This document shows positions 33,642 to 39,028 of a stretch of DNA of 64,000 nt, one piece after another; the stretch's first letter is position 1; every line of letters starts with the position of its first letter. The stretch lies in NCBI GenBank assembly GCA_016125165.1, contig WGMH01000003.1, forward strand, positions 1 through 64,000, written 5' to 3'. The notes beneath the pieces were generated by a model, which did not search any database, had not been told where the DNA came from, and saw nothing but the letters and a program-made list of their open reading frames with translations. Source of the stretch: Alphaproteobacteria bacterium (lineage in GTDB: Bacteria; Pseudomonadota; Alphaproteobacteria; Micropepsales; Micropepsaceae). A program made the translations under genes and the position numbers.

Positions 33642-34727
33642 ATGATTCCCGAAGCCAAACTCATGCGGCTTGTGGACCGCCATGCTGCGGTGGAAGCCGA
33701 GCTATCTTCCGGCGCGGGCGGGGCCGCGTTTGCCAAACTGTCCAAGGAACATGCCGAGCTTGCGCCGGTGGTTGCCGCAGTGGAGGCCTATCGCAAAGTG
33801 CTTCGCCAGCTTGAAGATGCGGAGGCGCTGATCAGCGATCCGAAATCAGACTCCGAGATGCGCGCGCTCGCCGAAGAAGAGCGCGCGGAGCTGAAGGAAC
33901 AGTTCGAACGCCTTGAACATGATCTGCGCATCCAGCTTCTCCCCAAGGATGCTGCGGACGATTCCTCTGCCATTGTCGAAATCCGTCCCGGCACGGGCGG
34001 GGACGAAGCTGCGTTGTTCGCGGCCGATCTGCTCAACATGTATCAGCGCTATGCCCAGCTACAGGGCTGGAAAACGGAACTGATGTCGCTCACCGAGAGC
34101 GAACTGGGCGGCATCAAGGATGCGGTGCTGGAGGTGGAGGGCAGGGGCGCCTACGCCAAGCTGAAATTCGAAAGCGGCGCGCATCGGGTGCAGCGCGTAC
34201 CGGTTACAGAAGCTTCTGGTCGAATCCACACATCGGCGGCGACTGTTGCCGTCTTGCCGGAAGCTGAAGACGTGGACGTGCATATTGACGAAAAGGATTT
34301 GCGCGTCGATGTGTTCCGTGCTTCGGGGGCGGGCGGTCAGCATGTGAACAAGACTGAAAGCGCCGTTCGCATCACGCATATACCGACTGGCATTGCCGTG
34401 GCGCAGCAGACCGAGAAGTCGCAGCACAAGAACAAGGCCCAGGCCATGAAGCTGCTGAAGGCCAAGCTGTTCGAGATGGAGCGCGAACGCGTGGAGAGTG
34501 CGCGCGCGGGCACCCGCAAGAGCCTTGTTGGTTCTGGTGACCGATCAGAGCGTATCAGGACCTACAATTTCCCGCAGGGCCGCGTCACCGATCACCGCAT
34601 CAACCTCACGCTTTACAAGCTCGATCGCATCGTGTCCGGCGAAGATCTGGGAGAGTTGATCGACGCGTTGGTGGCCGAAGATCAGGCCAGCAAACTGGCT
34701 GCTCTGGAAGCCGAAGGCGCGGCATGA
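33642..34727 (+). CDS. prfA: Peptide chain release factor 1
   Basis: A 361-residue class I release factor for UAA and UAG. The catalytic GGQ lies at 231-233 ([19 protein letters not shown]), and the codon-recognition PxT-type segment is in the preceding domain (ACTAS-like: [17 protein letters not shown]). It overlaps prmC by 4 bp, pairing the factor with the enzyme that methylates its GGQ glutamine. Confidence 0.97.
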
Positions 34728-35584
34728 ACGCGGCGCGGGCACTTCTGATCGCGGCAGCCGAAAGGCTGGCCGCGGCAGGTGTGGATTCGGCGCGGGTGGA
34801 TGCACGGGTGCTCTTTGCCCATGTGCTTGGCGTTTCCAGCAGTGAACTCCTGATGAATTCGACCGATGTCGATAGGCGGCTTTCCGCCGATGTGCTCGAA
34901 CGCTTTGACGCCGCCATTGCACGGCGGGCAAGGCGGGAGCCGGTTGCCTACATCACCGGCCGGAAGGATTTCTGGAATCTCACCTTCGACGTAGGCCCCG
35001 GCGCGCTTATTCCGCGCCCCGAAACCGAGTTGATGATTGAATTGGCGCAGCACCGCTTTCGGGATCACGACGCGGTGCTCAACGCGCTTGATCTTGGAAC
35101 CGGCAGCGGCTGCATCCTGCTAACCTTCCTGTCGATTTACCCAAAAGCCCAAGGGCTTGGCATCGATATCTCCGATGAAGCATTAAGCTGGGCCCGCAGG
35201 AATGCGCGCAAGTTTGGCGTTGAATTGCGGACGATGTTTCGGAAGAACCGCTGGGCAGAGGGCATAACCGGCTCCTTCGATGTGATCTTCGCCAATCCGC
35301 CCTATATCGACGATACGGATATGGCCCAGCTTGCGCCCGAGGTCGGCGGCCATGAACCACACGGCGCGCTTCATGGGGGAGCAGATGGTCTTGATGCTTA
35401 TCGGGAACTTGCGCCCCAGATCGCGGCGCGACTGAATCCGGGCGGATTCGCGCTGGTGGAGGTTGGGCTCGGGCAGGCAGCCGCCGTGGAGTCTTTGTTT
35501 GTGGCGCATGGATTGGACGCGCGCCAAACCGCCAGGGATCTGGCAGGAATCCCGCGAAATCTGGTGTTCCAGCGCCCGGCGTGA
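34724..35584 (+). CDS. prmC: Release factor glutamine N5-methyltransferase
   Basis: A 286-residue SAM enzyme that methylates the glutamine of GGQ in release factors. The substrate-binding NPPY motif is at 191-194 (FANPPYIDD), motif I is [13 protein letters not shown], and the N-terminal helical domain carries the [14 protein letters not shown] block. Its ATG overlaps the prfA stop (ATGA). It is followed by a 257-bp non-coding stretch that holds a structured RNA. Confidence 0.96.
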
Positions 35585-35600
35585 AACCCGCAAAAAACTG

Positions 35601-35836
35601 TTGGAAATGAGGGCGCGAGCCGCTAGCTTCCGGGCCGTGGGGAAGCAGGAACCCCCGCCGATCCCGGCCAGTCCGGATCGGGAATGCCATAAGGGGGCAA
35701 CGGGCGCCGAAGGGTGCCGGTTCTTGCGAAACGCGAAAGACGTAAGTCGAGACAGATAGCAGGATCGTGCCGCATATCCGCATGCTTTCGGGCGTGGATG
35801 ATATGCGCCGGGTCTGCCAGAACCAGACATAAGAGG
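35601..35836 (+). ncRNA. Structured leader or small RNA upstream of the DUF4167 gene
   Basis: The stretch has at least six helices. GGC-GCGA-GCC (35612-35621) has a GNRA loop. CCGATCC pairs with GGATCGG (35658-35664/35675-35681). GGCGCC-GAAG-GGTGCC (35703-35718) is a 6-bp stem. GAC-GTAA-GTC (35739-35748) has a second GNRA loop. CGCATAT/ATATGCG (35771-35807) encloses CATGC/GCGTG, and GTCTG/CAGAC (35812-35828) comes last. A long-range 9-bp helix joins GCAGGAACC (35645-35653) to GGTTCTTGC (35719-35727). The RBS at 35832-35836 follows directly. It does not match RNase P, tmRNA, 6S or SRP RNA as I know them. No T-run precedes the gene, so a cis-acting leader fits best. Confidence 0.55.
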
Positions 35837-35841
35837 TTTCC

Positions 35842-36261
35842 GTGAAGCGTTCACGTGGACGCGGCCGCCGGCCGCAGGGTGGTAGTAGCCAGGGCAACAA
35901 TATGAATCCGAACCGCACGTTCGATTCGACGGGCCCTGAGGTGAAAATTCGCGGCTCCGCCGCCCATGTCTATGAGAAGTATCTGCAGCTGGCCCGCGAT
36001 GCGAACTCATCCGGTGACCGGGTGATGGCTGAGAACTATCTGCAGCACGCCGAGCATTACTTCCGAATTCTCAGCGCCATGCAGGCGCAACAGCAGCAGC
36101 AGATGCAGAATGCGCAACAGCAGCCGCCCTATCAGGCGCAGCAGCGTCCGCAGGGCCCGAACGGCGTCGGCGACCAGCCATTCCCCCAGAACGGTAGCAG
36201 CGCGGCCTTCTCGCTTACCGGTTCGGGCGACGAAAACGAAGAAGCCGACGCGCTGGAATAG
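35842..36261 (+). CDS. DUF4167 protein with Arg-rich N-terminus
   Basis: A 139-residue protein of a family restricted largely to alphaproteobacteria. The start KRSRGRGRRPQ is strongly basic and could bind RNA. The conserved core follows (VKIRGSAAHVYEKYLQLARDANSSGDRVMAENYLQHAEHYFRIL, about residues 30-76), and the rest is Gln/Pro-rich low complexity. Function is unknown. The GTG start has AGAGG six bases upstream. Class-wide it lies between prmC and clpB. A structured RNA immediately upstream raises the possibility of autoregulation. Confidence 0.92.
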   Translation: MKRSRGRGRRPQGGSSQGNNMNPNRTFDSTGPEVKIRGSAAHVYEKYLQLARDANSSGDRVMAENYLQHAEHYFRILSAMQAQQQQQMQNAQQQPPYQAQQRPQGPNGVGDQPFPQNGSSAAFSLTGSGDENEEADALE

Positions 36262-36400: not shown

Positions 36401-39028
36401 ATGGACATCGAGAAATTCACGGAGCGCGCGCGCGGCTTCATTCAATCGGCGCAAGGTTTGGCACTTCGCTCAAACCATCAATATTTCACGCCTGAACATC
36501 TGCTGAAGGTTCTCATCGATGATGAGGAAGGCCTTGCCGCGCGCTTGATTCAGGCTGCGGGTGGCCGCGCGGATCAGGTGCGCCTTGGCGTCGAAGCGGC
36601 GCTGGCGAAATTGCCCAAAGTGGAGGGCTCCGGTTCAGGGCAGGTTTATCTGGCGCCGGAAACCGCGCGCCTGTTTGAAAGCGCTCAGGACATCGCAAAA
36701 AAGTCCGGCGATTCTTTTGTCACGGCGGAAATCCTGCTGCTGGCGCTGGCCATGGCTGCGAACACCGAGTCCGGCCGTCTGCTGAAGGCGGCGGGCGCAT
36801 CGCCACAGGGACTGAACACGGCGATCAAGGATTTGCGGCAAGGCCGCTCCGCCGACAGCGCGACGGCGGAAAACCAGTATGACGCGCTGAAGAAATACGC
36901 GCGCGATCTCACCGAGTTGGCGCGCACCGGTAAGCTCGATCCGGTCATTGGCCGTGACGAGGAAATCCGCCGCACCATCCAGGTTTTGTCGCGCCGCACG
37001 AAGAACAACCCCGTCCTTATCGGTGAACCGGGCGTCGGCAAAACTGCGATTGCGGAAGGCTTGGCGCTGCGCATCGTCAATGGCGATGTGCCGGAATCGC
37101 TGCGCGACAAGAAGCTGATGGCGCTCGATATGGGTTCGCTCATCGCCGGCGCCAAATATCGTGGCGAATTTGAGGAACGCCTGAAAGGCGTGCTCAACGA
37201 AGTCACCGCCGCCGAGGGCAAGATCATCCTGTTCATCGACGAAATGCACACGCTCGTTGGCGCGGGCAAGGCCGATGGCGCCATGGATGCGTCAAATCTT
37301 TTGAAGCCCGCGCTGGCGCGCGGCGAGCTGCATTGCGTCGGTGCAACGACGCTCGACGAATACCGCAAACATGTCGAGAAGGATGCGGCGCTTGCCCGGC
37401 GCTTCCAGCCGGTGTTCGTCAACGAACCTACGGTGGAAGATACCGTCTCGATCCTGCGTGGCCTGAAGGAAAAATACGAAGTCCATCACGGTGTGCGCAT
37501 CACGGATTCGGCCATTGTCGCGGCGGCACAGCTTTCGCACCGCTACATTCCCGATCGCTTTCTGCCAGACAAGGCCATCGACCTGATGGACGAGGCTGCG
37601 AGCCGCCTGCGCATGCAGGTGGATTCCAAGCCTGAAGAACTGGACGAACTGGACCGCCGTGTGATCCAGCTCAAGATCGAGCGCGAAGCCCTCAAGAAGG
37701 AGACCGACAAGGCCTCCCGGGACCGCCTCGTTGCGCTTGAGGAAGAACTCGCCAACCTGGAGGAACAGGCCAACGCGCTTACCGCCAAATGGCAGGAAGA
37801 AAAGAAGTCCGTCCAGAGCGTCCAGGCACTCAAGGAGAAACTCGATGCCGCGCGGCAAGACGTGGAAATCGCGCAGCGCAAGGGTGACTTCGCGCGCGCG
37901 GGCGAACTGACTTATGGAGTCATTCCGGGTCTGGAACGTCAGCTTCGCGAGATCGAAGAACAGCAGAGCGCCGCTCTGGTGCAGGAAGCCGTGACACCGG
38001 AAAACATCGCGCAGGTCGTGTCGCGCTGGACAGGTATTCCGGTCGACAAGATGCTGGAAGGCGAGCGCGAAAAACTTCTCAAGATGGAAGAGCAGTTGGA
38101 GAAGCGCGTCGTCGGCCAGAATGAGGCGGTGCGTGCCGTTGCCAATGCCGTGCGTCGCGCGCGCGCGGGCCTTCAGGATCCGAACCGGCCAATCGGTTCG
38201 TTCCTGTTCCTGGGTCCCACGGGTGTCGGCAAGACTGAACTCACCAAGGCGCTCGCCGAATTTCTCTTCGATGATGACACCGCAATGGTGCGCATCGACA
38301 TGAGCGAGTTCATGGAGAAGCACGCGGTTGCACGTCTCATCGGCGCACCTCCAGGGTATGTCGGGTATGAGGAAGGTGGCGTGCTGACCGAAGCTGTGCG
38401 TCGGCGGCCCTATCAGGTCATCCTGTTCGATGAAGTCGAAAAGGCGCATCAGGACGTGTTCAACGTTCTCTTGCAGGTTCTGGATGACGGCCGCCTGACA
38501 GACGGGCAGGGCCGCACGGTCGATTTCCGGAATACCGTGATTATCCTGACTTCGAACCTCGGAACCGAATTCCTGTCCGTGGAAACGGGTGAGACCCCGC
38601 AGGCTCGCGCACAGGTCATGCAGGCCGTGCGTGCCCATTTCCGCCCGGAATTTCTCAACCGTCTCGATGAAATCATCCTCTTCCATCGCCTCAGCCGGGC
38701 GAACATGGACAGGATCGTCGATATCCAGATGGGCCGTTTGAAACGGCTTTTGTCGGATCGCAAGATCGAGATCGATCTTAGCGAAGCGGCGCGTGAATGG
38801 TTGGCTTCTGCGGGTTACGATCCGGTCTATGGCGCGCGTCCGTTGAAGCGCGTCATTCAACGGCGCTTGCAGGATCCGCTCGCGCAGCTTCTGCTCGAAG
38901 GAAAGATCGCCGATGGTGATGCGGTGACGGTGGATGCCGGTCGCCGCGGCCTGAAGGTCAACGGTCAGGAGTTCGTCGCCAGCGACGATGAACTCGTGTC
39001 CGAACCGCCGAGCACCGCGCTGCACTGA
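36401..39028 (+). CDS. clpB: ATP-dependent disaggregase ClpB
   Basis: An 875-residue Hsp100 protein. It has an N-terminal Clp repeat domain (about 1-145), first AAA+ module with Walker [11 protein letters not shown] (about 205-214), the coiled-coil M domain (about 410-525), second AAA+ module with [10 protein letters not shown] (about 606-615) and a small C-terminal domain. ClpB works with DnaK to extract proteins from aggregates. The M domain and the absence of an IGF/L loop separate it from ClpA/ClpC. Heat-shock control is expected. Confidence 0.97.

Follow-up and report, generated by a model that had tools for sequence, protein, structure and literature searches.

A structured RNA leader appears to precede the gene for a DUF4167 protein in the 64,000-nt stretch of alphaproteobacterial DNA analysed here (the window; contig WGMH01000003.1 of assembly GCA_016125165.1). 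The leader is real, conserved and lineage-specific, and the promoter that it follows is conserved in a large part of the class. We read promoter and folded leader together as an element that controls DUF4167 in cis and may be read by the DUF4167 protein itself, a reading offered tentatively and given, as a whole, slightly less than an even chance. A cis-acting DUF4167 leader had been the core idea of the first-pass annotation, made from the letters of the window alone; the promoter, the covariation, the association with DUF4167 and the lack of an Rfam match back that idea, and some of the stems listed with it did not hold.

The genes run in the order prfA (33642-34727), prmC (34724-35584, + strand), DUF4167 (35842-36261, + strand) and clpB (36401-39028, + strand) in a genome of 3.04 Mb, the names prfA and clpB coming from Pfam domains. 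DUF4167, assigned by Pfam (PF13763, E 1.7e-33), has a GTG start and encodes 139 aa with an Arg-Gly-rich start, a two-helix core and a low-confidence tail. The 257 bases between the end of prmC (35584) and the start of DUF4167 (35842) had been described as noncoding; the gap itself was confirmed. Mechanical calling places open reading frames across the gap, for example 35463-35759 on the + strand and 35079-35918 on the − strand; across 169 leaders, no frame 5' of DUF4167 was open throughout (median open stretch per frame 19, 15 and 12 codons), and no conserved upstream reading frame was noticed. Relatives were compared within the family, which we take to be Micropepsaceae, and across the class, where DUF4167 was matched in 251 of 289 genomes; among the 38 without a match, most of the 20 listed were of 0.7-2 Mb. 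Records matching the DUF4167 protein of the window were alphaproteobacterial and included Rhizomicrobium electricum and one Rhizomicrobium sp. MAG. The 80 class loci are a non-random sample, because they were taken from the better-scoring matches listed among the 251 genomes, with L181-L209 left out; prmC adjoins DUF4167 in 73 of the 80 and in one further locus with a longer gap. In Caulobacter, CCNA_00922 is ClpB according to PMC11725641 and PMC4551563, and its neighbour CCNA_00921 is probably DUF4167.

A sigma70-like promoter occupies 35592-35629 on the + strand, within the gap. It consists of an UP-element-like A-tract 5' of the −35 box (35592-35597, read directly), the −35 element TTGGAA (35601-35606), a spacer of 17 bases (35607-35623) and the −10 element TAGCTT (35624-35629), both boxes being conserved in relatives. 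A scan for standard TTGACA/TATAAT elements did not detect it. It was also missed by the first-pass annotation, which counted a stem of the promoter spacer as RNA: this GCGA stem (GGC-GCGA-GCC, 35612-35621) sits between the −35 and −10 boxes and therefore precedes the inferred start of transcription.

DNA similarity to the gap was detected in eight of the 96 family genomes besides the window's own, over about 50-70 bases within the first 77, and these gaps, set side by side, share TTGGAA, 17 bases and TAGNTT. Of 84 distinct family gaps, 68 carry a strict pattern (TTGG[ACT], 18 bases, TANN[CGT]T, in which a spacer of 17 is the longest permitted), and so do 52 of the 73 gaps of the class sample; 16 and 21, respectively, lack it, the reverse strand yields 1 and 3 matches, and dinucleotide shuffles yield means of 0.76 and 1.04; this count covers loci with a detected prmC, family gaps of at most 560 bases and 73 of the 80 class loci. 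The spacer was 17 bases in all 120 strict matches, 17 being the longest that the pattern permits; with a looser pattern, it was 17 in 70 of 83 matches, 18 in 12 and 15 in one. A looser count in the class, made without a chance control, gave exact matches at 55 of 80 loci and matches with one mismatch at 71. At least five A were found in the eight bases concerned at 43 of the 54 class loci with a promoter match. At locus L260, no prmC lies within about 2.2 kb 5' of DUF4167, yet an A-tract and a TTGGAA-type promoter stand 407 bases before the gene; among the seven class loci at first found without prmC nearby, the strict promoter was present in two and absent from five. Uniqueness of the pattern in the window's genome (one exact match, 10 fixed bases) was discarded as an argument, being no more than chance in 3 Mb. 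Among the sequences compared, no element other than the promoter was seen to be conserved class-wide, and we read this promoter as belonging to DUF4167.

Judged from the position of the −10 box, transcription would start at about 35635-35638 and yield a 5' leader of about 206 nt (35636-35841, + strand); we infer that the region is the leader of DUF4167, on one transcript with the gene, rather than a separate RNA. The predicted folding of the whole gap, a test that takes in the promoter and its spacer, was ordinary (z −0.56, 55 of 200 shuffles as good). The first 107 nt of the leader (35636-35742) gave z −2.04 with 6 of 200 shuffles as good, the full leader (35636-35841) gave z −1.77 with 12 of 200, and the reverse complement of the leader gave z +0.31. 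By these predictions, the leader folds better than its shuffles to a modest degree, which does not carry the case. A consensus scan of the + strand of the window from the promoter to DUF4167 revealed no terminator-like site, factor-dependent ends being outside such a scan.

The best fold of the window from 35636 includes three helices, P1, P2 and P3, all on the + strand. The nine pairs of P1, formed by the 5' strand GCAGGAACC (35645-35653) and the 3' strand GGUUCUUGC (35719-35727) with pair probabilities of 0.93-0.97 and with covariation on both sides, close a branched domain that holds P2 and P3. The P2 hairpin (CCGAUCC/GGAUCGG, 35658-35681, pair probability 0.38-0.94) is the P2 of covariance model R3 described below, and the P3 hairpin (GGCGCC-GAAG-GGUGCC, 35703-35718, pair probability 0.99-1.0) adjoins P1. 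A conserved strand, GCGAAAGACG (35733-35742), then follows 3' of P1 and was found with at most one mismatch in 33 of 111 distinct gaps, although three of these matches (L013, L026 and L066) look like chance. Further along, the best fold of the window alone, obtained without alignment to relatives, has a 3' hairpin domain (35759-35817, + strand). Two small stems annotated earlier fared differently from the helices of the branched domain: the GTAA stem (GAC-GTAA-GTC, 35739-35748) is predicted in the window (0.88), but its place is taken in relatives by GACGAGC or by other letters, and the terminal stem GTCTG/CAGAC (35812-35828) reached a pair probability of only 0.01 in the leader.

P1 covariation is stronger evidence than folding energy, and it carries the case. 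An alignment-free test, in which P1 strands were swapped among sequences, covered 30 relatives besides the window, with GCGAAAGACG as the anchor (its 33 matches minus L013, L026 and L066, and with the hand-picked L016 included). In these 31 sequences, the pairing of each sequence's own strands was better than in all 20,000 swaps, with an own mean score of 18.27 versus 15.41 for foreign strands and 17.40 for the best permutation; in a repetition with 24 less redundant sequences, likewise no swap was as good. This clean result is that of a second attempt: a first test by duplex energy in wide windows had given an own mean of −19.5 versus −18.0 with 21 of 20,000 permutations as good, and the test was then redone with narrower windows and a helix score. 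In a table of 12 hand-picked sequences, whose rows were chosen for clear P1 strands and from whose count L009 and L016 were left out, 89 of 96 pairs form and 7 of 20,000 shuffles were as good; position 4 is AU, GC or GU and position 6 is GU, GC, AU or CG. Locus L037, as an example, has the P1 strands CACGGACC/GGUCCGUG. The 9-bp long-range helix of the first-pass annotation, GCAGGAACC/GGTTCTTGC (35645-35653/35719-35727), is thus P1 and was substantiated. The check proposed there, an alignment of related prmC-DUF4167 gaps followed by a covariance-model search, came out in its favour, in that P1 covaries and the model R3 finds leaders.

R3 was built from seven relatives with the window excluded and was the sole model searched with; another model (R1, automatic structure) had two pairs only and was not used for searching. 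The alignment A3 of the seven close sequences proves nothing alone, as its covariation score was reached by 211 of 500 shuffles. In the window, R3 matched 35638-35751 on the + strand with 18.9 bits, for an E value of 0.029 when 226 kb of loci are searched, and against the whole 3.04-Mb genome the leader of the window was the best match, although a weak one (E 0.39), followed by a match of 14.3 bits. The search at E <= 10 of 84 family sources (the window and 83 loci, duplicate or cut-short loci being left out by hand) returned 29 matches: the seven seeds, 19 further leaders, including that of the window, and three elsewhere. Even at this threshold, R3 reaches the leader in just 26 of the 84 sources. 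In the R3-fitted alignment of the 29 matches, three of them off target, 90.3% of the cells are paired and 23 of the 24 pairs show two-sided changes, a level that none of 500 shuffles reached; this alignment leans to the model and is taken as supporting evidence only. At E <= 0.01 in the 96 family genomes, there were 13 matches in 11 genomes, of which 12 were DUF4167 leaders (seven being seeds), and the window's own genome gave no match at this threshold. The thirteenth match (G066:C1:3143138-3143212, 27.8 bits) is antisense inside a 389-aa open reading frame and is probably chance. In these sequences, P1 proved conserved in part of the family, and P2 and P3 less strictly so, as judged from the model-fitted alignment.

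The Shine-Dalgarno-like AAGAGG (35831-35836, + strand) lies partly in a predicted GAACC/GGUUU stem (pair probability 0.67-0.89). A Shine-Dalgarno hairpin was convincing by eye in several relatives and was not upheld by the swap test, in which the permutations as good, out of 10,000, numbered 6352 for 28 core sequences, 9508 for 79 family sequences, 8445 for a set of 103 and 6177 for 66 class sequences. A switch between P1 and the fold of the full leader was rejected. P1 was predicted at 0.57 or above in 12 of 13 sequences when leaders were cut 3' of P1 (0.44 in L042) and above 0.5 in 5 of 13, window included, in full leaders, and shuffled 3' halves behaved alike (mean 0.42 real, 0.43 shuffled). 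A GACG...CGUC helix was unsupported, CGTC being near the start in 8 of 28 sequences only. The second DUF4167 codon, where it encodes Arg, is AGA or AGG in 36 of 38 sequences and in 75 of 86 of a wider set, and Arg codons in the following 38 codons are mostly CGN (AGA/AGG 123 of 632); in the window the second codon is Lys (start region 35842-35850). This AGA/AGG preference raises the possibility of an RNA-level constraint at the start of DUF4167.

Outside the family, R3 had no match in 94 loci. Leaders there are long: at 55 class loci the length up to the Pfam match is 149-484 bases (median 212). In a set of 130 leaders, the median to the start codon was 190.5. Twelve Devosia-type loci (L137, L143, L144, L148, L149, L156, L159, L166, L171, L177, L178 and L180) have a different, larger branched leader, closed at its 5' end by GCUGUC/GAUAGC; both-side changes occurred in 15 of its 42 pairs versus 6.8 in shuffles, with 0 of 500 as high, in a structure derived from the same alignment as was tested. 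Since R3 is silent outside the family, leaders are long there and the Devosia-type fold is another one, these lineages have the arrangement in common but not the fold. Within the family, the leaders of a group of 17 sequences (c9, L051 to L095) open with a GGGAUC...GAUCCC-type hairpin and lack the GCGAAAGACG strand; many of its members have GGGGACUCAAAGCGA in common further along the leader. Nine family genomes (G038, G048, G052, G054, G064, G065, G067, G071 and G073) had more than one DUF4167 match each, some weak or partial; both copies in G052 have leaders.

The DUF4167 protein of the window starts MKRSRGRGRRP, and this basic, Arg-Gly-rich start is conserved, in keeping with the Arg-rich protein start annotated earlier. 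Invariant in 28 DUF4167 sequences were R5, R25, S29, G31, P32, K35, R37, G38 and much of the helical core. An AlphaFold2 model predicted helices at 40-57 and 60-93 (mean pLDDT 68.1), with both ends at low confidence. A search of solved structures yielded one weak match, a designed helical repeat, and no relative indicating RNA binding; a search of NCBIfam gave no name for DUF4167. From its composition, the protein possibly binds RNA.

The leader matched no Rfam family, in line with the first-pass annotation, which saw no likeness to abundant RNAs that it knew. The Rfam 15 library (4227 models) holds curated structured RNAs, including leaders, and at gathering thresholds it gave 0 matches in the window and 0 in the loci of 20 relatives; at E <= 1, the gap region gave ST7-AS1_2 and a single relative out of 10 gave EBER1, each scoring under its gathering cut-off. 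A literature search, with most subscription journals and preprints outside its reach, returned no description of a DUF4167 leader. Ribosomal-protein operon leaders are autogenous, and their fold varies between lineages though the gene is the same. The DUF4167 leader resembles them in being structured, in standing immediately 5' of a gene whose product is basic and putatively binds RNA, and in having a fold that differs by lineage under one gene; DUF4167 differs in not being a ribosomal protein with a known role, and its binding and repression are only proposed here.

In the mechanism that we propose, a dedicated, conserved sigma70-type promoter in the gap would yield a DUF4167 mRNA that begins with some 206 nt of leader. 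Roughly the first 100 nt of this leader would form a branched domain closed by P1 and followed by the single strand GCGAAAGACG. The leader would act in cis on DUF4167 expression, and such regulation is probable. The most likely reader of the fold would be the DUF4167 protein, binding its own leader and thereby limiting its own translation or the lifetime of its mRNA, as in ribosomal-protein leaders. We favour autogenous control because the gene keeps a leader even as the fold differs from lineage to lineage, and because no aptamer shared by the lineages turned up; it is a serious candidate, although we would not call it probable. Two features that we had expected of such a mechanism, a Shine-Dalgarno hairpin that covaries and a switch undoing P1, gave the null results described above. 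More doubtful is the wider proposal that DUF4167 is a class-wide alphaproteobacterial RNA-binding self-regulator, the leader folds of which are replaced by lineage while the promoter (A-tract, TTGG, 17-base spacer, TAGNNT) has hardly changed over a large part of the class and goes with the gene into altered neighbourhoods.

The cis element might instead be read by something other than DUF4167, such as RNase E or a stability factor, a ribosome-linked factor, or a temperature or other physical signal, which we regard as unlikely but worth keeping in view. Two lineages with different structured leaders would fit a loosely specified role of this kind, for example mRNA protection, as would leader folding slightly better than that of shuffles, with a mean z of −0.97 in 65 family, −1.15 in 21 named other and −0.86 in 43 class leaders, values from related sequences whose significance is overstated; P1 covariation and the conserved GCGAAAGACG, however, suggest that some of the family share one defined fold. 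Somewhat less likely still is a stable small RNA, separate or cut from the leader, that is made from its own promoter and acts in trans, with DUF4167 merely downstream. Small RNAs that derive from untranslated regions have been described (PMC8625941), and the DUF4167 leader is like them in having its own promoter, by sequence pattern, and a folded RNA beside a coding gene; the very conserved promoter with its A-tract and the folded 5' domain would suit this explanation. Unlike them, the leader lacks a terminator-like site, the consensus scan of the window having detected none on the + strand from the promoter to the gene. Five T within six bases occurred in only 13 of 55 class leaders, and the promoter of L260 stays with DUF4167 without prmC. 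The fold was not found beyond the family either, which a trans-acting RNA could, but need not, tolerate.

A riboswitch binding a metabolite or ion is very improbable: a branched domain with a conserved unpaired strand, placed 5' of a single gene, would suit it, but the domain is absent from the 94 loci outside the family, where a different aptamer is conceivable, and there is no Rfam match, no terminator-like site in the window scan and no supported Shine-Dalgarno or P1 switch. We give just as little credence to the idea that the promoter alone is functional and that what follows is just a long stretch of untranslated RNA whose folding is accidental. The class-wide conservation of the promoter and of no other element seen, together with the ordinary folding of the whole gap, is what this idea would predict, but it is opposed by the covariation of P1 in the family and by that of the Devosia-type fold. 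Set beside these alternatives, the reading in which DUF4167 may control itself through a folded leader is the one we prefer.

DUF4167 is a domain of unknown function, named in only four of the papers searched, once in each, though present in most of the Alphaproteobacteria sampled. The conserved promoter and the leader with a defined helix offer a direct handle on the role of DUF4167 and on its possible self-regulation. If DUF4167 does regulate itself, it would be a new autogenous regulator for the class, and a case in which leader folds are exchanged while gene and promoter stay the same.
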